Assembly (NCBI GenBank): GCA_007129255.1
Contig: SKVW01000118.1
Span: 1 to 51,515 of the forward strand
Direction of reading: 5' to 3'
DNA from: Bacteroidales bacterium
GTDB lineage: Bacteria; Bacteroidota; Bacteroidia; Bacteroidales; UBA7960
Length of the DNA: 51,515 bases
Shown in pieces: positions 16,865 through 40,015 of the stretch (within the stretch, counting starts at the first letter, position 1; each line of letters starts with the position of its first letter). The translations under genes were made by a program, and so were the position numbers. The notes beneath the pieces were generated by a model. It ran no database searches. It was not told the DNA's origin and worked only from the letters and a program-made list of their open reading frames with translations.

Positions 16865-17470
16865 CTAATTTTCCGAATATGCTATCTGTTCAAGGATCAG
16901 TTCAAAACTCACACTGATCTTATCCCTGACACGGATCAGGCCCAAACCTTTGGTGGGAGGATCAATACCAAAATCTGAAAACAGGAACTTCTGTTCTCCA
17001 CGAAGGATGCTCTTTTGATCTTCAATCAGCTCAAGCTCCCCCTTCAGGTGATACCTGCGGGTTTCCCCAACAATGGTGATTTCTACCCATCCTTCGGCTT
17101 TACTGGAAGGCCGGTTGGTTTCAACCTCCCGGATATTGATAAACTCAATTTTAATTTCGGGATAGGTGTCATATTTTAATGTATTGCGAAAGTCGTTGTT
17201 CATAACACGGTTTTGGCAATCAAACTGATCCACGTCAATAAAAACGCTTCCATAAATTTCCCATTTTTCGTTATAGGGATCCCATCGTTCCATGATCAAA
17301 TCCATTCCGCGATCGTAATCCGACACACACTCAAAGCTGTTCACATTGGTGGTTCCCTTTATCTGCAGGGTGCTTTCTCCTGTTACATTCCAGAGTTTCA
17401 GCATTTCATTCCCTGCCCCATTGGAAGCCAGGGAAAAAATCAGCAGAAATATGAAAAGTTGGACACGCAT
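16865..17470 (-). CDS. YceI-family exported protein (divergent)
   Basis: A 201-residue protein with a short signal peptide (about residues 1-19) and a lipocalin-like YceI domain. The family pattern is visible: an opening strand ending in KGTTNVNSFEC, a central N-D-FRNTLKYDTYPEIKIEF segment, GWVEITIVGETRRYHLKGEL, and a closing FLFSDFGIDPPTKGLGLIRVRDKISVSF-type region. YceI proteins bind isoprenoid lipids in the periplasm; the ligand here is unknown. It lies 129 bases downstream of a second YceI gene on the same strand, and the pair shares the control region at 18188-18763. Confidence 0.8.
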   Translation of the reverse strand: MRVQLFIFLLIFSLASNGAGNEMLKLWNVTGESTLQIKGTTNVNSFECVSDYDRGMDLIMERWDPYNEKWEIYGSVFIDVDQFDCQNRVMNNDFRNTLKYDTYPEIKIEFINIREVETNRPSSKAEGWVEITIVGETRRYHLKGELELIEDQKSILRGEQKFLFSDFGIDPPTKGLGLIRVRDKISVSFELILEQIAYSEN

Positions 17471-17599: not shown

Positions 17600-18187
17600 T
17601 TAATTGGCCCTTCCTGAAGGGACAAAATTTGCTTTAAAATAAATATCGAGTTCATCGCCGGTTCTGATGGTGCCGAGCATGGCCCTTGGAGGCCTTACAT
17701 CAAACTGGCTGAATTTGATCTGGTGCTCACCTTCAAATTGAACACTGTTACCGTTAACGCTGTAATTGGCCCGCAAGGTCACCTCACGGATTTCGCCAGC
17801 TATAGTCAGTTGGCCGGTTGCCGTTACCCTGTCGGGGGAGATGTTGCGTACCCCGCTCAATTTAAATTCCACATATTCGTGGTCATCGGCATCAATGGCA
17901 TCATATGCGGTACGATCCATCCTGTTGTTTCCGCTTTCAAGGGAACGCACAGGTAAAAGCACTTTCAGGGATGAAATTTCCTTTATTTGCTGGTCCTCTA
18001 TCAGGATGGTTGCCTGTCCCCGGGCATCCTGCGATTCCATATCCCAGTCGTGAAGGGTAGAGGTACCCGCTACTTTAAAATGCTGCTGTGAATTTAACTG
18101 ATAGCCTTCCTGCGCCTGCAGTATTCCAAAAACCGCAGTCATCAGGAGAGTCATCAGAAATGAAAAAGTTTGTTTATTGCGTGTCAT
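17600..18187 (-). CDS. YceI-family exported protein
   Basis: A 195-residue periplasmic YceI-like lipocalin. The ATG at 18187 gives a classic signal peptide ending near LQAQ; an upstream in-frame start at 18244 would place 19 charged residues before it and is rejected. Conserved landmarks are VAGTSTLHDWDM, the stretch with VRSLESGNNRMDRTAYDA, YVEFKLSGV, ATGQLTIAGEIREV and FDVRPPRAMLGTI. It probably forms one transcription unit with the second YceI gene, and its upstream region is shared with the divergent porin gene. Its role in binding a lipid or quinone-like molecule is a family inference. Confidence 0.88.
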   Translation of the reverse strand: MTRNKQTFSFLMTLLMTAVFGILQAQEGYQLNSQQHFKVAGTSTLHDWDMESQDARGQATILIEDQQIKEISSLKVLLPVRSLESGNNRMDRTAYDAIDADDHEYVEFKLSGVRNISPDRVTATGQLTIAGEIREVTLRANYSVNGNSVQFEGEHQIKFSQFDVRPPRAMLGTIRTGDELDIYFKANFVPSGRAN

Positions 18188-18270
18188 TTTAATTTTTGTT
18201 TTTTTGGACCGGGCTTTAGCCCAAAGTCCGGATTTGTTCAACATTACTTTTGTTTTCTGGTCAGTCTATG

Positions 18271-18285
18271 GCAATCGTTGTACCG
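18271..18285 (-). promoter_or_regulatory. Candidate sigma-54 promoter facing the YceI genes (weak -24)
   Basis: On the minus strand CGGTACAACGATTGC has the -24 GG and the -12 GC exactly 12 bases apart, and a perfect TTGC. The -24 block is CGGTAC instead of TGGCAC (two mismatches). The distance to the YceI start (18187) is about 85 bases. Confidence 0.35.
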
Positions 18286-18404: not shown

Positions 18405-18420
18405 TTGCGGTATTCCGCAA
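18405..18420. promoter_or_regulatory. Operator-like dyad 1 (TTGCGG-N4-CCGCAA)
   Basis: A perfect inverted repeat with six-base arms and a four-base spacer; its core fits TGCG-N6-CGCA (18406-18419). Its centre is 20 bp from dyad 2. It is a proposed binding site for the NtrC-type regulator encoded nearby. Confidence 0.5.
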
Positions 18421-18425
18421 AAACT

Positions 18426-18439
18426 GTTGGTTTTTCGCA
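18426..18439 (-). promoter_or_regulatory. Operator-like site 2 (degenerate)
   Basis: Read on the minus strand it is TGCGAAAAACCAAC, identical to dyad 3 except for the CG at positions 11-12 of the 14-base core, plus its last base. It is centred 20 bp from dyad 1, the same spacing as between sites 3 and 4. Confidence 0.4.
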
Positions 18440-18534
18440 GTTTATTTCTTTGCATTTGGTTCATAAATTATTTATGCAGGATATTTAAATAAATGAAAGG
18501 GTTTATAAAATAATTTCAGGGAATCATTAATAAT

Positions 18535-18548
18535 TGCGAAAAACCGCA
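18535..18548 (+). promoter_or_regulatory. Operator-like dyad 3 (TGCG-AAAAAC-CGCA)
   Basis: A 14-base core with four-base inverted arms around six bases. It is followed after 20 bp by an almost identical copy, and lies about 128 bp upstream of the -12 element of the porin promoter, a usual distance for sigma-54 enhancer sites. Confidence 0.5.
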
Positions 18549-18554
18549 GAAAAA

Positions 18555-18568
18555 AGCGAAAAACCGCA
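18555..18568 (+). promoter_or_regulatory. Operator-like dyad 4 (AGCG-AAAAAC-CGCA)
   Basis: Part of a 20-bp tandem duplication (18536-18555 and 18556-18575, 19 of 20 bases identical). The phasing of two helical turns would put two dimers on the same face of the DNA. Confidence 0.5.
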
Positions 18569-18655
18569 GAAAAAACTGCTGTAAAAAAAATTTTTTCAGG
18601 TAAGTAAACTCATATAATATTGATTAGATGCTTATTGGTGATTTTTAAAATTTGT

Positions 18656-18671
18656 TGGCATATGCCTTGCT
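18656..18671 (+). promoter_or_regulatory. Sigma-54 promoter for the porin-like gene
   Basis: TGGCATATGCCTTGCT matches the sigma-54 consensus TGGCACG-N4-TTGCW except for two bases at the end of the -24 block. GG and GC are 12 bases apart, as required. Transcription would start near 18681, about 83 bases before the ATG at 18764. The sigma-54 regulator gene lies just beyond the porin gene. Confidence 0.7.
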
Positions 18672-18763: not shown

Positions 18764-20083
18764 ATGAAACCGAACAGGACTATCATTGTAGCACTTTTAA
18801 CTTTAGTGTTTCTCAGGGTTCATGGCGAACAACCGGCATTGATCAATGAAGAATCCACTTTTGTAAGTGATTACATAGAAAACCTTAATCACAACGGTAT
18901 TGAGATTGCCAATGTTAATGACATCAGGTTTTACATGGGCTTGCATACAGTCGCAAGGTTCCAGGCCCTTACCCAGGAAAATGTTTTTATTCTTTCAGGA
19001 GACGAATTTGTAGAACCTACAGAGCTGGGAGCTGGTGCTCAAACATCATTTGCAAACCTCGAATTCCGGATTAATCTGGGAGATGACATTGTGGTTTTCT
19101 TCGATGGATTGCTGGCAACACAAAGACATCCCAGCAGATGGTGGGGTGGAAATGGGTACATTTATTTCCGAAGAATGCCTGAAAATTCTTTCCTTTCTGT
19201 TTTCAACGGAATATTTAATTACATCGATTTAAAGGTAGGTAACTTCTATGCCGATTTTGGCGATGAGTGGTACCGCCGCTCTATGAACGGTGACGTGCAA
19301 CGCAACCCACTTGTGGGAACACCTGTATTTTCAGCCCTGGGAACCGAACCCGGATTTGAAATTATTCATAAAAGACCACGCTATGGTTTAATGGTCGGTG
19401 CAGGTACCGGAGCCCCCGAACAAGACATGAGGGCTGACAGAGGCTATTCTTTTCGCTCCAAAGCCTGGGTATCTCCTGTTGAGAACCTTTACCTTTCCGG
19501 GTCTTTTTATACTGCCGACCATGAGGCAGGAGCTGCACGTGGCACCAATCTTTTCCGCAGAGAAAGACTTGGAGGCTCCTATTCAAGCGTATGGAATCTT
19601 CATAATGACGATTCAGGAGGCGGTGAAGGCCCCGGCCAGGTTCGTATTGGAGATGGAAAAGAACTGGATGCTTTCCAGTTCGATCTTACATGGAGGCCTA
19701 TCCCCACAACACATTTCAAGGCGCATTACGGGTTTGCCACTGCATCGGGTCCTGAACCCCTGTTTAATAATGAAGCCGGAACTGAAGAGTGGGCTTATTA
19801 TGGTGCAGACATTACACAATATATCCACCCCAGCATTTACCTCGCTGCCAGATACTCAGAAGCCAATGCATCCGAATTTGGAGATTTAACAGCTGGCTCT
19901 GTAAACAGAATTCAAATAGGTGCGGGAGCATGGATTTCCAACCGAATCCTCATGAAACTGGAATATGTGAGTCAGTCAGCATCAGGTTGGGACGAAGGAA
20001 CAGTAGGTGTAGCTAACTTTGTTGATGTGGGCAGAGATCCTAAATTCAGCGGAATCATTTTTGAAGCATCCTTCTCATTGTAA
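18764..20083 (+). CDS. Outer-membrane porin-like beta-barrel protein
   Basis: A 439-residue exported protein with a signal peptide ending near RVHGEQ. The remainder alternates polar and hydrophobic residues with many Gly and aromatic residues, and it ends in a hydrophobic-Phe strand (FEASFSL), as outer-membrane barrels do. It looks like a substrate-selective or general porin; I cannot name the family or the cargo. The ATG at 18764 (MKPNR) gives the proper signal peptide; a start at 18728 would add 12 residues. Its upstream region carries a strong sigma-54 promoter and paired operator-like sites, so the neighbouring PhnD-like/kinase/regulator operon probably controls it. Confidence 0.75.
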   Translation: MKPNRTIIVALLTLVFLRVHGEQPALINEESTFVSDYIENLNHNGIEIANVNDIRFYMGLHTVARFQALTQENVFILSGDEFVEPTELGAGAQTSFANLEFRINLGDDIVVFFDGLLATQRHPSRWWGGNGYIYFRRMPENSFLSVFNGIFNYIDLKVGNFYADFGDEWYRRSMNGDVQRNPLVGTPVFSALGTEPGFEIIHKRPRYGLMVGAGTGAPEQDMRADRGYSFRSKAWVSPVENLYLSGSFYTADHEAGAARGTNLFRRERLGGSYSSVWNLHNDDSGGGEGPGQVRIGDGKELDAFQFDLTWRPIPTTHFKAHYGFATASGPEPLFNNEAGTEEWAYYGADITQYIHPSIYLAARYSEANASEFGDLTAGSVNRIQIGAGAWISNRILMKLEYVSQSASGWDEGTVGVANFVDVGRDPKFSGIIFEASFSL

Positions 20084-20157: not shown

Positions 20158-21507
20158 TTAAAAATCCAGTCCGTGCTTTTCTGCTTTGGTGCGAAAGGTA
20201 GACAAGGGAATATTCAGCAGTTTTGCTGCTTTTGTTTTATTACCACCGCTTCTTAAAATCGCTGCTTTAAGAAGTTTTATTTCAGTGTTGTTTATGACCT
20301 GTTCAAGATTCCACTGATCCATTGTTTCAGGATCTGTATCAGAAACCTGGGGCATCAAAAATTCGGAAGGAAGGTCTGCAGCCGAGATCTGATCTCCCCG
20401 GGTAGTAAGCACCAGTCTCTCGATCAGGTTTCTAAGCTCCCTCACATTCCCGGGCCAGGGATAATTTTCAAGAACAGCCATTGCATCCGGGTCCATCCTT
20501 TTGGGTTTACCGGGAGAAAATTCTTTCAAAAACTTATCGATAAGCACAGGAATGTCCTCTTTGCGTTCTCTTAACGGAGGAATATGAATGGGAATGACAT
20601 TCAGTCGGTAATACAGGTCGTCCCGGAATTTTCCCTGTGCAATCAATTCTTTCAGGTCGTATTTTGTGGATGAAACCACCCTGACATCCACCTTTATCGA
20701 ACTGGAGGAACCCACAGGCTCCACCTCCTGCTCCTGCAGCACCCGTAAAAGTTTTACCTGCAATTCCAGCGGAACATCATCAATATCATCAAGGTATATT
20801 GTGCCTTTATCGGCAATTTCAAAGCGGCCTTTGCGTGATTTTTCAGCCCCGGTAAAGGCTCCTTTCTCATGCCCGAAAAGTTCACTTTCAAATACCTCAC
20901 GGGCAAGGATGGCGCAACTAACCTTAACAAAAGGCTTCTTACTCCGGTTGCTGTTGTAATGAATGATATTGGCCAGCATTTCTTTTCCGGTTCCTGTTTC
21001 GCCGGTAATAAGGATGGAAGCATTGGAATGGGACACCGACCGGACCAGCTCAAAAATATCTTTTACTGCCTTGCTTTCCCCTGCAAAGCTGGAGAAGTCA
21101 AACTTTTCCCTTACCTGAGTATGCAAACGCAGGTTTTCGTCTTTTACTTCCTTCAACTCAGCCACCCTTTGGGTAAGATGCAGGATCTCTTCATTGCTGA
21201 AAGGTTTGGAAAGGTAGTCGTAAGCCCCCAGTTTAAGGGCTTTTATGGCAGTATCTACGGAGGTGTAAGCGGTCATTACCACCACAATGGTTTCAGGAGA
21301 GACCTTTTTTACTTTTTCCAGAAGCTCCAGCCCATCCATGCCCGGCATACGGATATCGGTAATCAGTAAATCGGGTTTTTCCTGCTGAAGTGTTTGGATT
21401 ACACCTGAAGCTTCAGCAAACTCAAACACATGATAACCCGCATCCTTCAGTTCATCGGCCAGGGTTACCCTAAGAATTCTTTCATCATCTACTAAAAATA
21501 TCTTCAT
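20158..21507 (-). CDS. NtrC-family sigma-54 response regulator
   Basis: A 449-residue three-domain regulator. The receiver domain has the acidic pair DD near residues 7-8, the phospho-acceptor Asp51 (LITDIRMPGMDG) and Lys101. The AAA+ domain has Walker A GETGTGKE (169-176) and an intact GAFTGA loop (216-221), so it should contact and activate sigma-54 polymerase. A Fis-type helix-turn-helix (NKTKAAKLLNIPLSTF) closes the protein. Its start overlaps the kinase stop by four bases. It is the obvious activator for the sigma-54 promoter upstream of the porin gene; the link is inferred from position and promoter type. Confidence 0.94.
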   Translation of the reverse strand: MKIFLVDDERILRVTLADELKDAGYHVFEFAEASGVIQTLQQEKPDLLITDIRMPGMDGLELLEKVKKVSPETIVVVMTAYTSVDTAIKALKLGAYDYLSKPFSNEEILHLTQRVAELKEVKDENLRLHTQVREKFDFSSFAGESKAVKDIFELVRSVSHSNASILITGETGTGKEMLANIIHYNSNRSKKPFVKVSCAILAREVFESELFGHEKGAFTGAEKSRKGRFEIADKGTIYLDDIDDVPLELQVKLLRVLQEQEVEPVGSSSSIKVDVRVVSSTKYDLKELIAQGKFRDDLYYRLNVIPIHIPPLRERKEDIPVLIDKFLKEFSPGKPKRMDPDAMAVLENYPWPGNVRELRNLIERLVLTTRGDQISAADLPSEFLMPQVSDTDPETMDQWNLEQVINNTEIKLLKAAILRSGGNKTKAAKLLNIPLSTFRTKAEKHGLDF

Positions 21508-23051
21508 GATTGTCGGGATTCATTTTCTTGCGCTAAAGGTAAAATGATGTTAATAGTTGTTCCTTTTTTATGTTCACTGAAAATTTCCAGTTCACCCCCA
21601 TGATCGTTGATGATGTTCAGGCTCACAGATAGTCCCAGGCCGGTTCCTTTGCCTACAGACTTGGTAGTAAAAAAAGGATCTATTACCTTATCCAGGTTTT
21701 CACCAGGGATGCCAATTCCATTGTCCTTGAATTCCATTAGTATACTGGAAAGATCCGAAAGCCTGGAAACCGTTATGGATATTTTACCTTTTTCGCCCTG
21801 AGGTTGTTGCTGCTTTTCTGCAATGGCATCAATGCTGTTCAGGATAAGATTTAAAAAAACCTGCTCCAGATGATTTTGGCTACCGTATACAAAGGTTTCT
21901 TCAGCCGGAGTTTCCAGGTTTATTTTTATGCTTATTTTTTCAAGGCGATGGCTGGAAAGCGAAATGGATTTATTCAGCGCTTGTTTGATATCTATGGTAG
22001 ACTTTTCAGAGGCAGGCTGCCGGGCAAAGTTCAACAGGTTTTTGATCACCCACTCAACCTTGGCGGTTGCCTCTTCCATCATCTCCAGATACTTTTGGTT
22101 TTCTAAATGGTTCTCCGGGTTTTTCTTCATCCTAGAGATACAATTCATGATACCGGCCAGGGGATTGTTCACTTCATGGGCCACGCCGGCGGCAAGGGTG
22201 CCGATAGATGCCAGTTTTTCAGAATGGATCAGTTTTTTCTGGGCGCCTGCCAGTTCATCATAGGCTTGTTGCAGCCGGAAAACCATCTCGTTGAATTTGG
22301 AAACCAGGATATCGATCTCGTCACCGGGCAGGATTTGCATCACTTTACCTACTTTGGTGGGATAGCGGGAAGCAAACATCACATTCTTTTCACGAATAGA
22401 CTGCATATCAAGGCTTTCGGCAATGTTGCTGATGTCCTTTACCGGGCTGGTCACCAGGTAGGAAAAAATAAAAGTTCCCACCAGGCTGATACCGATCAAC
22501 ACGATGATCATTCCAAAAAGTGTTTCCGTAGCCTGATCAAGGGTATGGGCAATATTTTCTTCGGTTATGCCCACCCTCACAAAACCGATACTGCCATCCA
22601 GCAAAGGAATTGAAATATCGCGAATAAGCTGCTCCCTGTCTTTAAAGCGGACATGGGCAGATAAAACCTCACTGCTCATCTGCCGTTCATGCACATCATA
22701 CAAACCGGATGGAACCGGACCGTCAAAAGTGTGGGCCCGGATCAGGCAGTCCTGATCGCAAATCAGGATGTATTCTATGGTTTCATCGGCTGCTTTTACC
22801 TCATCCAGCAAAACGTTCATGGCTACCACATCATCAAAAAGCATATAGTTGATGGCTCGCTGGGAAATAACCTGTGAAATAAAAATACTTCGTTGCTGGA
22901 GCTCATCCTCGAGGGAAGAAAAAATAATGCGATGCACCAGGGCCACATTTATACTCCCGAACAATGCCACGACCACCACCATGCCAATGGTAAACTTCCA
23001 GAAAAGTGGAACCTTTGATTTTTCTTTTTTTACCGTAAAAGGAATGGTCAT
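21504..23051 (-). CDS. Membrane sensor histidine kinase
   Basis: A 515-residue kinase. A first transmembrane helix (about residues 18-40) and a second (about 178-200) bracket a periplasmic region of about 140 residues. A HAMP linker and coiled coil follow, then an NtrB/ZraS-type dimerisation domain with His292 in the motif GVAHEVNNPLAG. The C-terminal ATPase domain contains N-, G1- and G2-box patterns (NLILNSIDA, DNGIGIPGE, GTGLGLS). The periplasmic loop would be the contact for the PhnD-like lipoprotein encoded 12 bases upstream. The order sensor protein-kinase-regulator in one operon argues for a dedicated ligand-sensing circuit. Confidence 0.93.
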   Translation of the reverse strand: MTIPFTVKKEKSKVPLFWKFTIGMVVVVALFGSINVALVHRIIFSSLEDELQQRSIFISQVISQRAINYMLFDDVVAMNVLLDEVKAADETIEYILICDQDCLIRAHTFDGPVPSGLYDVHERQMSSEVLSAHVRFKDREQLIRDISIPLLDGSIGFVRVGITEENIAHTLDQATETLFGMIIVLIGISLVGTFIFSYLVTSPVKDISNIAESLDMQSIREKNVMFASRYPTKVGKVMQILPGDEIDILVSKFNEMVFRLQQAYDELAGAQKKLIHSEKLASIGTLAAGVAHEVNNPLAGIMNCISRMKKNPENHLENQKYLEMMEEATAKVEWVIKNLLNFARQPASEKSTIDIKQALNKSISLSSHRLEKISIKINLETPAEETFVYGSQNHLEQVFLNLILNSIDAIAEKQQQPQGEKGKISITVSRLSDLSSILMEFKDNGIGIPGENLDKVIDPFFTTKSVGKGTGLGLSVSLNIINDHGGELEIFSEHKKGTTINIILPLAQENESRQS

Positions 23052-23063
23052 AAGTTGGCAAAA

Positions 23064-23978
23064 TTATTTATTATCAACAGTTTCCTTCATTTGCCTGACA
23101 TGGTCGTAGTCAGCGTCTTTTGCTTCAATAAAACGGTCGATAAGAAGAACATCCAGCATATCCGATGCCCGGGCATTTTCGTGCATGGATAGGAATAAAC
23201 TTTTTAATTTTTGCTTTGTTTCGGGATCCAGCCTGCGAGACACCACTACTGGCGGGTTTCCAAAAGCAGGGGAAACTTCAACAATTTTAATTTCATTAAC
23301 CTGTTGAGGATCATGGGCTTTTACATAATCAAAAACCAGCTGGTTTACTGAAGCTGCTTCCACAATGCCCCTGGCAACCATTTGTATGGAATTGTCATGA
23401 CCGTATGTAAAAACAGAGGAATTAAAAAAATCATCCGGGGCCAGACCTTTCTCCCTCAGCCTGCTGATAACATATAGGTAACCCGTATTGGATAATGGGT
23501 CCGTGAAGGCAAAGGTGGTATTTTCCAGATCTTCCAGCCCCTTGGCCTGTGAGTCTGCACCGGCGATAATGTAAGCATGATAATAAGGTTTTTCATTGCT
23601 TACAGGAACCGCCAGGAGTTCAACCCCTTTTTGTAAATCCAGGCTTACATAAGCCCCTGTGCAAATAAATGCAAAATCCAATTGACCTTTTTCCAGCATC
23701 TGGTTGACCTCCCCATAAGTCTGACGTTGATGAAATTCAATGGGCCGGCCGATTTCATTGGAGAGGTAATCAAAGACTTTTTCATATGATCCAAAGGTTT
23801 CTCTTGGAGAAAGAATGGCTGATACGGCCACTTTTAAAGGTTCATAGCCATCCTGAACATATTTTTGCCTATTTCCGTTCAAGGTTTCATCAGGATCTAT
23901 TACCCTTACATCCGTTGGTTGACGATTGCAGGAGAAAAAAGAGATTAAAAATAACAGTGCAAAAAAATGTATCCTCAT
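23064..23978 (-). CDS. PhnD-like periplasmic binding lipoprotein (phosphate/phosphite/phosphonate-binding family)
   Basis: A 304-residue type-II periplasmic binding protein. The signal sequence ends FFSC (Cys17), a plausible lipobox, so the protein is probably anchored to a membrane. Family landmarks include the early VAVSAILSPRETFGSYEKVFDYL-type region, GQLDFAFICTGAYV (Cys106 in the binding cleft region), DPLSNTGYLY and FGNPPVVVSRRLD. No ABC permease or ATPase gene is present, so it is likely a sensor rather than a transporter part. The ligand is unknown; oxyanions such as phosphonate, phosphite or arsenite are known for the family. It is the first gene of the signalling operon. Confidence 0.85.
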   Translation of the reverse strand: MRIHFFALLFLISFFSCNRQPTDVRVIDPDETLNGNRQKYVQDGYEPLKVAVSAILSPRETFGSYEKVFDYLSNEIGRPIEFHQRQTYGEVNQMLEKGQLDFAFICTGAYVSLDLQKGVELLAVPVSNEKPYYHAYIIAGADSQAKGLEDLENTTFAFTDPLSNTGYLYVISRLREKGLAPDDFFNSSVFTYGHDNSIQMVARGIVEAASVNQLVFDYVKAHDPQQVNEIKIVEVSPAFGNPPVVVSRRLDPETKQKLKSLFLSMHENARASDMLDVLLIDRFIEAKDADYDHVRQMKETVDNK

Positions 23979-32912: not shown

Positions 32913-32941
32913 AAAGTGTTGTGACCAATATACCAAATGCC

Positions 32942-35900
32942 ATGAAAAGCACTCCAAAAAGAAATCTCTCCTTTCGTAAATCCTATTTATGGTTTACCTG
33001 CGTTTTTTTGTTTTTAACCGGCATGCATTCTTCCCATGCCTTTGCCATTGATGTTACTTTTGAAACTACCGGAGGTGTGACTGAAGCCTGTCAGGGGTCA
33101 ACTTTTGTCATTACCGGAAATGCCGATGGAGGAAATGAGGATTATATAATCTGGGATTGGAGTAGTGATCCCGCCGGAATGGTTACCGTTCTTGATGAAG
33201 ACATTGTCCTTTTCAACACAAACTTCAGTGCTACTCCCGGTGATTACCTGGTAACACTGACAGTGGAGGACAGCGATGGTAACACAGGCATCGGAAATAT
33301 TACCATTACCCTGAAGGAAACCCCCCAGGCAACCATCACTGCGGATGGTCCAACCACTTTCTGTGAGGGCGAATCTGTTTTACTGGAAGCCGATCCTGCC
33401 GATATGGTATTGTATTCCTACAAATGGAGAAGAAACAGTGTAGACATTCCCGGAGAAACCGGCACCGAATACCTGGCAGAACTGGAAGGGACCTACCGCG
33501 TGCGCATTACCGCTGATAACAGTTGCTCAAGCAGTTCAAATCCCATTTCGGTAACGGTGAATGAGCTGCCCAATGTTACTGCATCCAACGACGGCCCGGT
33601 ATGTGAAGGCAATGATCTGCAGTTATTCAGTCAGCCTGATGGGGCTTCTTCTTACTCATGGACCTTTGAAAACGACCCGGGCTTTTCCTCTGATGAGCAA
33701 AATCCGGTACTATTTAATATAGGACCTTCCCAGGCCGGTACCTATACCGTAACGGTAACAGACAATAACAACTGCAGCAATTCCGCATCTACCCTGGTTG
33801 AACTGGTTGAAATACAAATTGATTTGGTAGAAGTAGTGCATAATACCTGCTTTGGAGAAGAAAACGGCAGCATTACCGTAGAAGCTTCCCAGGGAAATCC
33901 CCCTTATTCTTACAACTGGAGCAACGGGCAATCAGGCGCAACCATTGACAACCTTTCGGCAGGCACCTATACCGTAACGGTAACGGATGCCGGCGGATGC
34001 CAGGCTACCCTTGATGTGGAGGTTAATGAAAATTCTGAAGTGGTACCCATGATCACATTTAAACAGGATCTGTTTTGTCATGGAGATGAAAACGGTTGGG
34101 CAGTGGCCCAGGCCTCAGGCGGTACGCCGGGTTATTCCTACCTGTGGAGCAATGGAAGCACCTCTTCCACCGCTATGAACCTTTCGGCCGGAGTATATAC
34201 GGTTACCGTTACCGATGCCCTGGGTTGTACGGGGGAAACTTCGGTTGAAATATTCGAGCCGGATGAACTGATAACTTATGTTTCAGAAAAACAGGATGTG
34301 AGCTGCCTTGCAGACGATGACGGCTGGGCTACCGTGGAAAGTATTGGTGGAACACCGGATTATTCCTATGTTTGGAGCGACGGGCAGGAAGGCCCAACGG
34401 CAACCAACCTGGTTGCAGATGTTTATACGGTTACTACCACCGACTTTTACGGATGTACTACCGAAACCTCTGTTACTATTGATGAAGCAGAAGATATTCA
34501 AATTGATTTTACCGATATTCAGCACCCCTCCTGCTTCGGATATGATGACGGGGAAATTACGGCAGTCCCATCGGGTGGTACTCCCGATTACTCTTATTTA
34601 TGGAGCAATGGAGAAACCACTGCAACCATCAGCGGTCTGGAAGCCGGTATTTACCAGGTAACAGTAACCGATGTCAACGGTTGCCAGGGCGAAGGTGAAA
34701 TAGAACTCATTGACCCCGACCTTTTTGAAGTTAATGTTGTGGATATTGAAAACGTTTACTGTTATGGAGAGGACAATGGTTCTATACTGGTAGAAACCCT
34801 GGGTGGAACTCCTGACTTTACCTATGAATGGAGCCATGGTGCAGACGGTCCCCTGGCCGACGGACTTACGGCAGGGATTTACTCCGTTACCGTTACCGAC
34901 CAGGAAGGATGCCAGGCCACAGCCGAGGCAGAAGTTATCCAGCCGGAAGAGCCCCTTGACCTAAGTATTGATGCCACCCATAATGAATGCTATGGGGATG
35001 AAAACGGAACTGCAACCGCCATAGTCACCGGCGGAACCCCATTTGACAGCGGAGAACCTTATTCCTACCTCTGGAGCAATGGCGCCACTACTGCAGAAAT
35101 TTCCGGGCTGGAAGCCGGAACTTATTCCCTGACCGTTACCGATGCAAATGGTTGTATCATTGAGGACAGCATAGAAATATTGCAACCCGATGAAGAATTA
35201 ACAGCCTATGCTGGACCCGACGAAACCATTTGCAGTGAAGACAATGGAGGCTCATGGATTTTGGGAGGAACCGACCCCTCCAACCCCACCGCAGATGGCG
35301 GAGTACCTCCTTATTCCTATCAATGGGAAGCTGTTCCTGAAGACCCATCCCTTTCAGGACAGGAAAACCTGGAAAACCCGGTTGTAAGTCCCACCCAGGA
35401 AACCACATACACCCTAACGGTTACTGATGACAATGGCTGTACTGCTGTTTCAAGCGCCACCATCAATCTTTGGCCCACGGTAGTAGCCGATGCCGGTGGA
35501 GACGAAGACGGAAATGTATTTATTTGCGAAGGGGCCACCATCAATCTTGGCGGAACTCCATTAGGAATTGGAAACACAGGCTATTACCTGAATGATCCCG
35601 ATATTGATCCGGCCCAATTCACATATCATTGGGAGCAAATTTCCCCCGGAGGCATTACGTTTATTTCAAACGAACCTCATCCGGAAGTTTCCCCGGTTGA
35701 AACCTCTACATACAGGGTCAGGGTTACCGACCAGGGCGGAGACAACTGTGAGGCATACGATACCGTGGTTGTGGAAGTTTTTGATCCCATTACGGCTGAC
35801 ATTATCCCCGATACAGAGATCTGCCATCCCGGAAACAATGGAGATGGTTTCACCCTTAGTGCAAATATCAGCGGAGGATCAGGTGATTATAACTTTTACT

Positions 35901-38900
35901 GGAGTGCTGACCCTGAAGACCCAACCCTGGCCGGGCAGGAAAATGAATTGAACCCAGTGGTTAATCCATTGGTAACGACAACTTATACCTTCACGGTGGA
36001 AGACCTGGTGGGCATTGGTTGCGATGTGAGTGAACAAACTGTTATCACTGTTTGGCCGGAAGTTTTTGCCAATGCAGGAACCGACACTATCATCTGCCAA
36101 CTTTCAGGCCCCGATACCTTTACCCTTGGCGGAGAACCAACCGCATGGGGCGGAAGCGGAGACTTTGACTATTTATGGAGTTCGGTACCTGTAGATCCTT
36201 CACTTGCCGGGCAGGAAACGCTGCCCAATCCGGAAGTGACTCCCACAGAAACCACAACTTATACCGTTTGGGTAACCGATGAAAATGGGTGCCAGCAATA
36301 TGATGAGATCGTTGTGGACGTTGGCGATGCACTCCTGGTAGATGCGGGAGAAGATACAGAGGTTTGCCATCCCGATAATGATGGAGAGTTCCAGCTGAAT
36401 GCCACCGTATCGGGCGGCTCAGGGAACTACAGTTATTCATGGACGCCTGCAGAGGGCTTGAGCGACCCTGAAATACCCAACCCGGTGGCCAGTCCGGAAA
36501 CCACCACAACCTATACCCTCACGGTATCCGATGAGCAAGGCTGCTTTTCAAGCGACGATATAACCTTAACAGTCATTGATCTGGTAGTTGCCGATGCAGG
36601 CGAAGACCAGACCATTTGCCATCCCGATAATTTTGGGGAAGCCCATCTTTCTGCAAGCGGAACCGGTGGCAGCGGAGTATTTGAATTTTACTGGACAGCA
36701 GAACCGGAAGATCCCTCACTTTCCGGACAGGAAAGCCAGCAGAACATCATCGTTTCCCCCACAGAAACTACCGTTTACACCCTTATAGTAACAGATCAGG
36801 GAGACGCTGCCTGTGCCGAAGTTGCTCAGGTTACGGTATTTCTTAATGAAGAGCTGACTGTTTCCGCAGGGGAAGATCATGTGATCTGCAATCCGGAAAA
36901 CGGCGGCACCGGGGCCCAGCTGCAGGCTCTTCCCTCAGGGGGTTCGGGTGATTTAACCTTTGAATGGAGTCCTGCAGAGGGATTGAGTGATCCCAATATT
37001 GCAGACCCCATTGCCAACCCGGAAGAATCCACAACCTATGTGGTTACTGTTACCGACAGTGCAGGATGCCAGGCTGTTGACGAAGTATTTGTGGAAGTGC
37101 TTCCCGAACTCATTGCAGATGCCGGAGCAGACTTTGTGGCCTGCCATGGCGTACCTGCTGAAATTGGCGGCTATCCGGCTGCATCCGGAGGTTCCGGGTC
37201 AGGTTATACTTACCAGTGGACTCCTGCCGAAGGTCTGGATGATGCCACGGTTGCCAACCCCATCATCTTATCTCCTTCCGGTGAGCAAACCTATACCCTG
37301 ATCGTTACAGATCCGCTGGGCTGCACCGCAGAGAGCGAGATAACCGTTACTATCAGCCCGGAGATATTTGCAGATGCCGGGGAACCCCAGACCATTTGCC
37401 TCGGAGAACAAGTTACCCTCGGAGGCAACCCCACAGGATCCGGGGGAACCCCTCCCTATAATTACTATTGGTGGTCAACCCAGGACGGAGCCATTAGCTT
37501 TGGTTCAAACCCCACGGTTACCCCGGGGCAAACCACCACATTTAACCTCACCGTAACCGATGCATCCGGTTGCTTTGACGGCAGCAGTGTGCTGATTACG
37601 GTCGATGAACCCATTACCCTGGATGCCGGCGAAGACCAGACCATTTGCCAGGGAGATACCACTATCCTTACCGCTACCGGGGGAACCAGTTACCTATGGA
37701 GCACCGGTGAAACCGAAAGCCAGATTCAGGTTGCACCAATGGAAACCACAACCTACACCGTTACTTCTGAAAATGCCTGCGGTATTGAAACCGATGAGGT
37801 AACAGTATTTGTTGAAGAGGCTTATTTGGTTGACCTGGGTGAAGACATTGAAATATGTTCCGGTGAAATTGTTGAACTGAACGCAGGTACCTTTGACAAT
37901 GCAGATTACCTGTGGTCTACCGGAGAAACCGAACAAGTGATCAGTATATGGGAAAGCGGAAGCTATTGGGTGGAAGTGACCAACCTTAACAATGGATGCA
38001 TCAGCAGCGATGAGATCATAGTGGAATACCTGCCTCAGCCTGATGCAGAGACCGGTCCTGATCAAACCATCTGCTTTGGAGAAGAAGTTACCTTAGGCCC
38101 TGAAAATCCGGAACCCTCTCCCACCAGCACCTTTATGTGGACCAGCGACCCGGAAGATCCTTCTCTTATCGAACCCGAAATTTCCAACCCCACGGTCAGC
38201 CCTTCCGTAACAACGGTCTATACCCTTACGGAAACCTTTACCGATACAGGTTGCGAAAACCAAAACTCTGTAACCATTACTGTTTTTGGAGAAGAAATAG
38301 ATGCCGGACCCGATCAGGAAATTTGCCTGGGAGAGTCGGTTGTTATCGGCCCGGACGATCCCGATATGAATAATGATTTTTACTGGACATCAAGCAATCC
38401 TGACGAAACTTTTGACCATGATGTTCCCAACCCGGAAGTTTCTCCGATGGAAACCACCACCTATACCCTGATGGAATACTTCCCGGATTACGGTTGTTCG
38501 GCTATTGCCGAGGTGGTTATTACCGTTCATCCCCTGCCTGCAGCAGATGCCGGCACCGATAAGGAAATGTGCATAGGCGAAACAATAACCATTGGACCGG
38601 ATGAATTTGTCCCTTCGCCCACCAGCGAATTTTACTGGGTGAGCGAACCTCACGATCCAAGCATTTCTGATCCGGCAATAACCAATCCAACGGTTAGTCC
38701 CGGGGTAACCACTGTTTACACCCTCATTGAAACATTCACCACCACAGGGTGTAGCTTTGAAAACAGCATTACTGTTGAAGTATTGGATCTTCCTGAAGTG
38801 CATATTTCGCAGGATACCCTGATTTGCCAGGGCGAGGCCATTCATATTGGGGATGAGGATGCACCGGAGCATTACACTTACGAGTGGACTTCCTATCCAC

Positions 38901-40015
38901 CCGGATATAACAGCAACGAAGCCAACCCTTTGGTGAGCCCGGAAGAAACCACCATTTTCATCCTTTACGTGACCAATCAACAGGGATGCGGATATGCCGA
39001 TTCTGTTGAGGTGGAAGTGATGCAAGCCCCCAAACCCCAGGTGGTGGATGACATCTTGTTCTGCAACCAGGAGCAAGTGCAGACGGTTTATATAGGCGGA
39101 GACTCCATTGATGGTTATACTTACCAATGGACATCCATTCCTGAAGGATTTGATTCGCAGGAAGCAAACCCATTGGCCGGCCTGCCGGAGGGCATTGACC
39201 TGATGACTTTCATTGTAACTGCAACCAACGAGTTTGGCTGTTCGGGATCGGACTCCATGCAAATGGCCGTATCCGACTTTGAGCTGGCATTTGATGGGGA
39301 ACCCACATTCTGTGAAGATGAAAGCATCTTTACGCCGGGAGATTTTGTTACAGTAACCGGCGGAACCCCCCCCTATCATTTCGAATGGATGACACCGGAA
39401 GGAGAAGTGATCTCTGAATTGCCCGACCCCGAAATTCATGCCCCATTTGAAAGCTATTACATCCTGAATGTTTACGATGAGGATGGATGCATCCTGATGA
39501 AAACTTTTGAGGTAATCGTGGTTCCCATTCCTGATGTAGAACTGGTGGCCACCCCTGACGGCAACCTGGTGATGGGTCAAACCGTGACAATCGCAGCCTA
39601 CCCTGAGGATTACGATCATTATGAATTCTTTGTGGATAATGAGTCAAGGCAGGCCGGATCAGCCAACACCTATTCCACAAATCAGCTGGAAACCGGACAG
39701 GAAGTATATGTAGTTGCATCCCATATGGGATGTATGGGAATTTCCGAATCCTATTTTGTGATCATAACCGATCTGCCCAATGCCTTTACCCCTGATGGAG
39801 ACGGTATCAACGACATTTTCGGGGAAGGATATGATCTGACCATCTTTAACCGATGGGGACAGAAGGTATTTGAAGGAAAGCAGGGATGGGACGGCACCCA
39901 TAACGGAAGAAAGGTTTCTCCGGGCACCTATTATTACATTATGGAAATGATTGATTCAAATAATCGTAATCACACACATAAAGGTTCCGTAACAGTTATT
40001 TTAAACAGGAACTAA
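32942..40015 (+). CDS. Giant SprB-like surface protein with PKD-like repeats and gliding-type C-terminal domain
   Basis: A 2,357-residue secreted protein. A signal peptide (about 1-35, ending AFA) is followed by Ig/PKD-like modules. About six SprB repeats (residues about 300-750) come next, each near 75 residues with a C-x-G-x-x-x-G-x-I start and a YSYLWSNG-type middle. Then follow about 15 PKD-like domains opening with patterns such as DAGEDQTIC and closing with TTTYTLTVTD (about 750-2230). The last 80 residues (NAFTPDGDGIND to the end) are the type B, gliding-associated C-terminal domain that sends proteins through the type IX secretion system. SprB in Flavobacterium is the moving adhesin for gliding. 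The ATG at 32942 gives the best signal peptide. Confidence 0.9.
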   Translation: MKSTPKRNLSFRKSYLWFTCVFLFLTGMHSSHAFAIDVTFETTGGVTEACQGSTFVITGNADGGNEDYIIWDWSSDPAGMVTVLDEDIVLFNTNFSATPGDYLVTLTVEDSDGNTGIGNITITLKETPQATITADGPTTFCEGESVLLEADPADMVLYSYKWRRNSVDIPGETGTEYLAELEGTYRVRITADNSCSSSSNPISVTVNELPNVTASNDGPVCEGNDLQLFSQPDGASSYSWTFENDPGFSSDEQNPVLFNIGPSQAGTYTVTVTDNNNCSNSASTLVELVEIQIDLVEVVHNTCFGEENGSITVEASQGNPPYSYNWSNGQSGATIDNLSAGTYTVTVTDAGGCQATLDVEVNENSEVVPMITFKQDLFCHGDENGWAVAQASGGTPGYSYLWSNGSTSSTAMNLSAGVYTVTVTDALGCTGETSVEIFEPDELITYVSEKQDVSCLADDDGWATVESIGGTPDYSYVWSDGQEGPTATNLVADVYTVTTTDFYGCTTETSVTIDEAEDIQIDFTDIQHPSCFGYDDGEITAVPSGGTPDYSYLWSNGETTATISGLEAGIYQVTVTDVNGCQGEGEIELIDPDLFEVNVVDIENVYCYGEDNGSILVETLGGTPDFTYEWSHGADGPLADGLTAGIYSVTVTDQEGCQATAEAEVIQPEEPLDLSIDATHNECYGDENGTATAIVTGGTPFDSGEPYSYLWSNGATTAEISGLEAGTYSLTVTDANGCIIEDSIEILQPDEELTAYAGPDETICSEDNGGSWILGGTDPSNPTADGGVPPYSYQWEAVPEDPSLSGQENLENPVVSPTQETTYTLTVTDDNGCTAVSSATINLWPTVVADAGGDEDGNVFICEGATINLGGTPLGIGNTGYYLNDPDIDPAQFTYHWEQISPGGITFISNEPHPEVSPVETSTYRVRVTDQGGDNCEAYDTVVVEVFDPITADIIPDTEICHPGNNGDGFTLSANISGGSGDYNFYWSADPEDPTLAGQENELNPVVNPLVTTTYTFTVEDLVGIGCDVSEQTVITVWPEVFANAGTDTIICQLSGPDTFTLGGEPTAWGGSGDFDYLWSSVPVDPSLAGQETLPNPEVTPTETTTYTVWVTDENGCQQYDEIVVDVGDALLVDAGEDTEVCHPDNDGEFQLNATVSGGSGNYSYSWTPAEGLSDPEIPNPVASPETTTTYTLTVSDEQGCFSSDDITLTVIDLVVADAGEDQTICHPDNFGEAHLSASGTGGSGVFEFYWTAEPEDPSLSGQESQQNIIVSPTETTVYTLIVTDQGDAACAEVAQVTVFLNEELTVSAGEDHVICNPENGGTGAQLQALPSGGSGDLTFEWSPAEGLSDPNIADPIANPEESTTYVVTVTDSAGCQAVDEVFVEVLPELIADAGADFVACHGVPAEIGGYPAASGGSGSGYTYQWTPAEGLDDATVANPIILSPSGEQTYTLIVTDPLGCTAESEITVTISPEIFADAGEPQTICLGEQVTLGGNPTGSGGTPPYNYYWWSTQDGAISFGSNPTVTPGQTTTFNLTVTDASGCFDGSSVLITVDEPITLDAGEDQTICQGDTTILTATGGTSYLWSTGETESQIQVAPMETTTYTVTSENACGIETDEVTVFVEEAYLVDLGEDIEICSGEIVELNAGTFDNADYLWSTGETEQVISIWESGSYWVEVTNLNNGCISSDEIIVEYLPQPDAETGPDQTICFGEEVTLGPENPEPSPTSTFMWTSDPEDPSLIEPEISNPTVSPSVTTVYTLTETFTDTGCENQNSVTITVFGEEIDAGPDQEICLGESVVIGPDDPDMNNDFYWTSSNPDETFDHDVPNPEVSPMETTTYTLMEYFPDYGCSAIAEVVITVHPLPAADAGTDKEMCIGETITIGPDEFVPSPTSEFYWVSEPHDPSISDPAITNPTVSPGVTTVYTLIETFTTTGCSFENSITVEVLDLPEVHISQDTLICQGEAIHIGDEDAPEHYTYEWTSYPPGYNSNEANPLVSPEETTIFILYVTNQQGCGYADSVEVEVMQAPKPQVVDDILFCNQEQVQTVYIGGDSIDGYTYQWTSIPEGFDSQEANPLAGLPEGIDLMTFIVTATNEFGCSGSDSMQMAVSDFELAFDGEPTFCEDESIFTPGDFVTVTGGTPPYHFEWMTPEGEVISELPDPEIHAPFESYYILNVYDEDGCILMKTFEVIVVPIPDVELVATPDGNLVMGQTVTIAAYPEDYDHYEFFVDNESRQAGSANTYSTNQLETGQEVYVVASHMGCMGISESYFVIITDLPNAFTPDGDGINDIFGEGYDLTIFNRWGQKVFEGKQGWDGTHNGRKVSPGTYYYIMEMIDSNNRNHTHKGSVTVILNRN

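Follow-up and report, generated by a model that had tools for sequence, protein, structure and literature searches.

The described systems closest to the locus analysed here are AioXSR, ArxXSR and ArrXSR, jointly XSR, in which a PhnD-like periplasmic protein is combined with a kinase and a regulator (PMC5908839). In the Aio and Arx systems the regulator is an AAA+ response regulator that acts on an RpoN promoter (PMC5908839), an example of which is TGGCACAACGATTGCA (PMC6011840). The role described for the AioX subfamily is that of sensors in arsenic metabolism (PMC5908839). The pocket residues of AioX were taken from Badilla et al. 2018 (PMC5908839), who also report that ArrX binds arsenate at 1 µM and phosphate at 150 µM.

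The window, by which we mean the entire 51,515-nucleotide stretch of Bacteroidales DNA under analysis, carries adjacent X (AioX/ArrX-type), S and R genes, that is an XSR gene set, next to genes for an outer-membrane porin and two YceI-like proteins (Table 1). A sequence-only reading of this DNA had found no described Bacteroidota system to match a sigma-54-controlled porin linked to a PhnD-type sensor. This holds in part: the wiring is of the known XSR kind, but we find no match for an XSR set that adjoins a porin-YceI module, has a changed pocket residue and lacks an arsenic-respiring enzyme, and our literature search found no paper in which such a porin system is described with YceI or a sensor of the AioX type. 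Our reading, which we hold to be probable, is that the 16-mer at 18656-18671 is the target promoter of a re-purposed XSR switch, one that would sense another oxyanion and induce the porin-YceI module.

Results

Table 1. Features of the porin-YceI locus and its XSR genes, in order of position in the window.
Feature	Position	Strand	Basis
Second YceI-like protein (YceI1)	16865..17470	-	Homologues follow porin in relatives
YceI-family periplasmic protein (YceI2), divergent from porin	17600..18190	-	PF04264; collinear with porin in relatives
Probable divergent sigma-54 promoter of YceI genes, CGGTACAACGATTGCC	18270..18285	-	Aligned with L065 CGGTATAAGATTTGCA, L126 CGGTATAAGATTTGCC, L127 CGGTATAACACTTGCC
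Predicted second operator pair, YceI side (palindrome 18405-18420; partial copy 18425-18440)	18405..18440	.	Aligned with paired palindromes in L065, L126, L127
Predicted operator pair for porin promoter: two CG-N6-CG sites 20 bp apart (18534-18549, 18554-18569)	18534..18569	+	Conserved in L045, L046, L048
Sigma-54 promoter (-24/-12) of porin, identified by comparison, TGGCATATGCCTTGCT	18656..18671	+	Top-conserved 16-mer upstream of four orthologues; rpoN in genome
Outer-membrane porin, 439 aa, OprO/OprP-like barrel	18764..20083	+	AlphaFold model; OprO/OprP best, Z 28.0
Sigma-54-dependent response regulator (receiver, AAA+, Fis HTH; GAFTGA)	20158..21507	-	Pfam PF00072, PF00158, PF25601, PF02954
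Sensor histidine kinase, weak sCache_3_2 match in sensor region	21504..23051	-	Pfam PF00512, PF02518
Periplasmic PhnD-type sensor, AioX/ArrX subfamily, Asn at AioX position 210	23064..23978	-	ArrX E 1.7e-56, AioX E 3.8e-38

Elsewhere, the window contains a 2364-aa open reading frame (32921-40015).

The sensor and its pocket

The sensor had been called PhnD-type from its sequence, and rightly so: ArrX is its best match and AioX the next. It retains Cys106 and five further pocket residues, and two of the seven AioX pocket residues are changed, Asp210 to Asn and Ser163 to Thr. Thr163 occurs in nearly all Bacteroidota loci that we read, regardless of context, and thus has no discriminating value. 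Asn210 accompanies the porin-YceI context, nearly all porin-linked sensors having it; the exceptions to this pattern are Ser210 in the porin-linked L068 and Asn210 in L144, where the neighbour is a cytochrome c gene. In L121 and L122, His210 occurs together with EB_dh genes. Asp is retained in relatives that have ars or molybdoenzyme genes next to them: among the Asp210 loci (L123 and L140-L143), L141 and L143 have a molybdoenzyme together with ars genes (acr3 and arsM by profile in L143; read from sequence in L141), L142 has a molybdoenzyme alongside, L123 has ArrB-like and NrfD-like subunits, and L140 has an outer-membrane gene followed by the contig end. Since the molybdoenzymes of L141-L143 give their best scores with TtrA or PhsA models, and these fall below cut-off, we refrain from naming them ArrA. 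Because the sample is small and made up of related sequences, we treat the agreement between residue 210 and gene context as an association rather than proof of ligand; the sensor tree is unrooted and we claim no order of descent from it.

Some of these relatives have further features. In L141, L142, L143 and L145, all XSR loci of Bacteroidota, the sigma-54 regulator is GAFTGA-class-like, and the neighbours are an outer-membrane gene, an iron-sulphur or TAT protein and TtrA/PhsA-like molybdoenzymes that reach no NCBIfam cut-off; some of the loci also have ars genes. The sensor gene of L145 (5999-6872) is split across two reading frames. In the His210 relatives, possibly a third branch, an EB_dh haem-domain protein comes next (L121:1202-3820, L122:11425-12636), and L121 also has a DUF5777 barrel.

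The best-surviving alternative to our reading keeps the same switch and makes arsenate its ligand (or phosphate as an analogue), in which case the porin would be arsenic-responsive and the gene set an ArrXSR in both function and descent. The retained pocket residues and the closeness of ArrX, the nearest solved relative, speak for it, as do the presence of a phosphate porin among the OprP-type folds, an ars operon with acr3 in the genome, and the position of the L046 porin orthologue immediately next to an ars operon (acr3, arsM, arsC, arsR; L046:1690-6911). We do not accept the last as proof of an arsenic role, given that the L046 regulator lies off the porin contig and that the similar ars cluster of the window's genome has no porin. 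Against arsenate stands the Asn that replaces Asp210 in nearly all porin-linked sensors, where relatives beside ars or molybdoenzyme genes keep Asp. Furthermore, ArrA was not found in the 95%-complete genome, whose sole Molydop_binding match is a formate-dehydrogenase-like fragment, so that we see no arsenic molybdoenzyme there as an XSR target, and the genome holds no second exact operator pair (see below) that would place the ars operon in the regulon. We consider an arsenate switch unlikely. A changed pocket, in a genome with no arsenic-respiring enzyme to control, suggests instead that the sensor family probably has a second job.

The adjacent regulator and its predicted operators

The regulator adjoining the porin is of the NtrC/AtoC type and carries GAFTGA. 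It is, as had been noted, the only sigma-54 activator in the window; genome-wide there are seven strong activator matches, that is six besides the window's own, and adjacency therefore required independent support. Predicted operators of the form CG-N6-CG, paired 20 bp apart, lie ahead of the porin promoter in the window and, in most of the relatives examined, ahead of the target genes; of 18 regions, 10 contain a strict pair, where the null mean is 0.01. The pair upstream of the window porin is the sole exact match to the pair pattern in the genome, and the YceI-side pair, which matches with two mismatches on the - strand, is less perfect. Similar pairs also occur in several loci from other families. 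The letters of the operators vary with which of the two HTH types the regulator has, and this ties the operator to the adjacent regulator. The sequence-only reading had seen the promoter and the adjacent activator but had passed over the paired operators and the second, divergent site.

A different activator of the genome might drive the sigma-54 promoter, as the seven strong matches would allow, but with adjacency conserved across many genomes and operator type tracking the HTH type of the adjacent regulator, we regard this as very improbable and retain the adjacent regulator as the likely activator. A candidate for sigma-54 autoregulation of the sensor operon, TGGTATACTTTTGGCA (24088-24073, - strand), was rejected, as it overlaps a TAnnTTTG box and is not conserved in the same-genus L128.

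The porin promoter

A bare match to the sigma-54 pattern is weak evidence, because 0.22 matches are expected per window and because the strict consensus has five matches in the whole genome against three in a reversed control; three of the four genome matches other than the porin site lie within long reading frames. The proposed genome-wide search for further promoter matches was run but proved uninformative as pattern alone, and we dropped it as stand-alone evidence, whereas comparison among orthologues is supportive. In the ∼560 bp 5' of four orthologous porins, TGGCATATGCCTTGCT is the most conserved 16-mer, with 12 of its 16 columns invariant, whereas 60 shuffled sets gave 7 at most. Across the window and three other genomes the porins are 85-87% identical and the DNA upstream of them is largely diverged, with TGGCATATG..TTG kept 105-112 bp from the porin ATG (108 bp from the 16-mer in the window). 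Ten bases lie between GG and GC in the window 16-mer, the spacing required of a sigma-54 -24/-12 promoter; the -24 GG is present in all four orthologous promoters, with the caveat that the -12 element is GC in two of them and GT in the other two. As the best score on the + strand of the intergenic region, that of the 16-mer has p = 0.0005. A search for rpoN, named beforehand as a check, found the gene in the genome. Thus, judged by comparison of these sequences, the porin promoter is a genuine, conserved sigma-54 promoter, as had been claimed.

That the conserved block is rather a Bacteroidota housekeeping promoter (TAnnTTTG) or the site of another regulator, a reading prompted by the TATG(Y)nTTG that the four orthologues share and that resembles TAnnTTTG plus one base, is the least credible alternative and was set aside, given that exact TAnnTTTG is absent from the porin and YceI upstream regions tested and that TGGC...TTGC is kept in distant relatives without TA.

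The porin and its YceI partners

The earlier designation of the sigma-54 target as a porin stands: its barrel is clear in an AlphaFold model of moderate confidence (pLDDT 62, pTM 0.68), and fold comparison places OprO and OprP first, with Z 28.0 against ∼24 for other porins. The alignment to OprO/OprP covers 339-340 residues with an rmsd of 3.3, at a sequence identity of about 14-15%; the confidence of the model is too low for assigning pore residues such as the arginine ladder of OprO/OprP. We abandoned naming the porin by family, as it has no Pfam, NCBIfam or PDB sequence match. The mature porin is net acidic, which lends no support to anion selectivity. Between genomes (window 18764-20083, L064, L065) the porin is 85-87% identical where the sensors are only ∼60% identical, so the porin is either unusually conserved or transferred separately.

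Relative to the order in distant relatives given below, the window is rearranged, with the two YceI genes divergent from the porin and R-S-X convergent to it. The porin adjoins RR-HK(-X) in the window, L065, L067, L068 and L069. The order in distant relatives is X, S, R, gap, YceI, porin, (YceI), all on one strand, with X-S-R-YceI-porin collinear in L113-L116 and L118-L120. Most RR-YceI gaps of these distant relatives hold a sigma-54-like site, L118 being an exception, and the mean best score is 19.27 against a null of 15.36 (sd 0.42). The YceI side of the window has its own aligned site, CGGTAYAANNNTTGC, as well as an operator pair, and by score alone this site is at chance level (p = 0.15). 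Probably both YceI-family proteins are induced together with the porin, through the second operator pair and the divergent sigma-54 site. YceI1 has no Pfam match of its own.

The porin and X-S-R genes of genome G005 lie on different contigs, and flavobacteria and Mucilaginibacter have YceI-porin genes with no X-S-R matches in the DNA searched. Neighbouring genes were tried as a guide to the ligand and rejected, since those annotated beyond the module are mostly unrelated to each other. Genes for nitrite reductase, nrfH and nrfA (L045:3923-6031), lie ∼2 kb upstream of the porin orthologue in L045, beyond the YceI pair.

Discussion

Comparison with relatives supports the promoter, the operators, the gene linkage, the subfamily of the sensor and the change in its pocket. 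We infer a phosphorelay, induction and transport, with an oxyanion other than arsenate or arsenite as ligand. The PhnD-fold periplasmic protein of the AioX/ArrX subfamily would bind the oxyanion and engage the membrane kinase, which would phosphorylate the NtrC/AtoC-type regulator. Dimers of the regulator would then occupy the CG-N6-CG operator pair, the two sites being two helical turns apart, and via looping would activate RpoN-RNA polymerase at TGGCATATGCCTTGCT, inducing the porin. The second operator pair and the divergent sigma-54 site would probably serve to induce the two YceI-family proteins simultaneously, and the products would make up a module of the outer membrane and periplasm for uptake or handling of the sensed compound.

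On balance, we lean towards a wider proposal, that in Bacteroidota a distinct Asn210 branch of the AioX/ArrX subfamily has a non-arsenic oxyanion as its ligand and switches on a sigma-54 porin-YceI module. If true, a sensor subfamily so far described in arsenic metabolism would have a second physiological role. A clade-wide pocket change, an outer-membrane target and the lack of an arsenic-respiring enzyme together suggest that the XSR switch is modular, and a single pocket position, 210, may report ligand class. The analysis also makes available an explicit, conserved sigma-54 control region for Bacteroidota, consisting of a predicted promoter and paired operators, and gives the unnamed porin family, with the YceI proteins linked to it, a candidate role.

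Among known systems, OprO/OprP of Pseudomonas provide the nearest barrel fold to the predicted porin model, although their identity to it is low and the porin has no sequence match in the PDB. ArrXSR of Chrysiogenes arsenatis supplies the closest solved sensor, ArrX, which is 39% identical to the window sensor in alignment; however, its ArrR is CitB-like and without AAA+, no RpoN promoter was found upstream of its arrAB (PMC5908839), and the window differs further in its altered Asp210 and in a genome with no detected ArrA. The arsenite-sensing, RpoN-dependent AioXSR and ArxXSR share with the window a PhnD-like periplasmic sensor, a kinase and an AtoC-type AAA+ regulator (PMC5908839), as well as a regulator site upstream of the RpoN promoter (PMC6011840). 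They differ in that their target is a molybdoenzyme, where that of the window is a porin and probably the YceI genes, and the window sensor is only ∼31% identical to AioX, with pocket residues Asp210 and Ser163 changed. XSR control through RpoN is already known; what is new here is the porin target, the pocket and the context.
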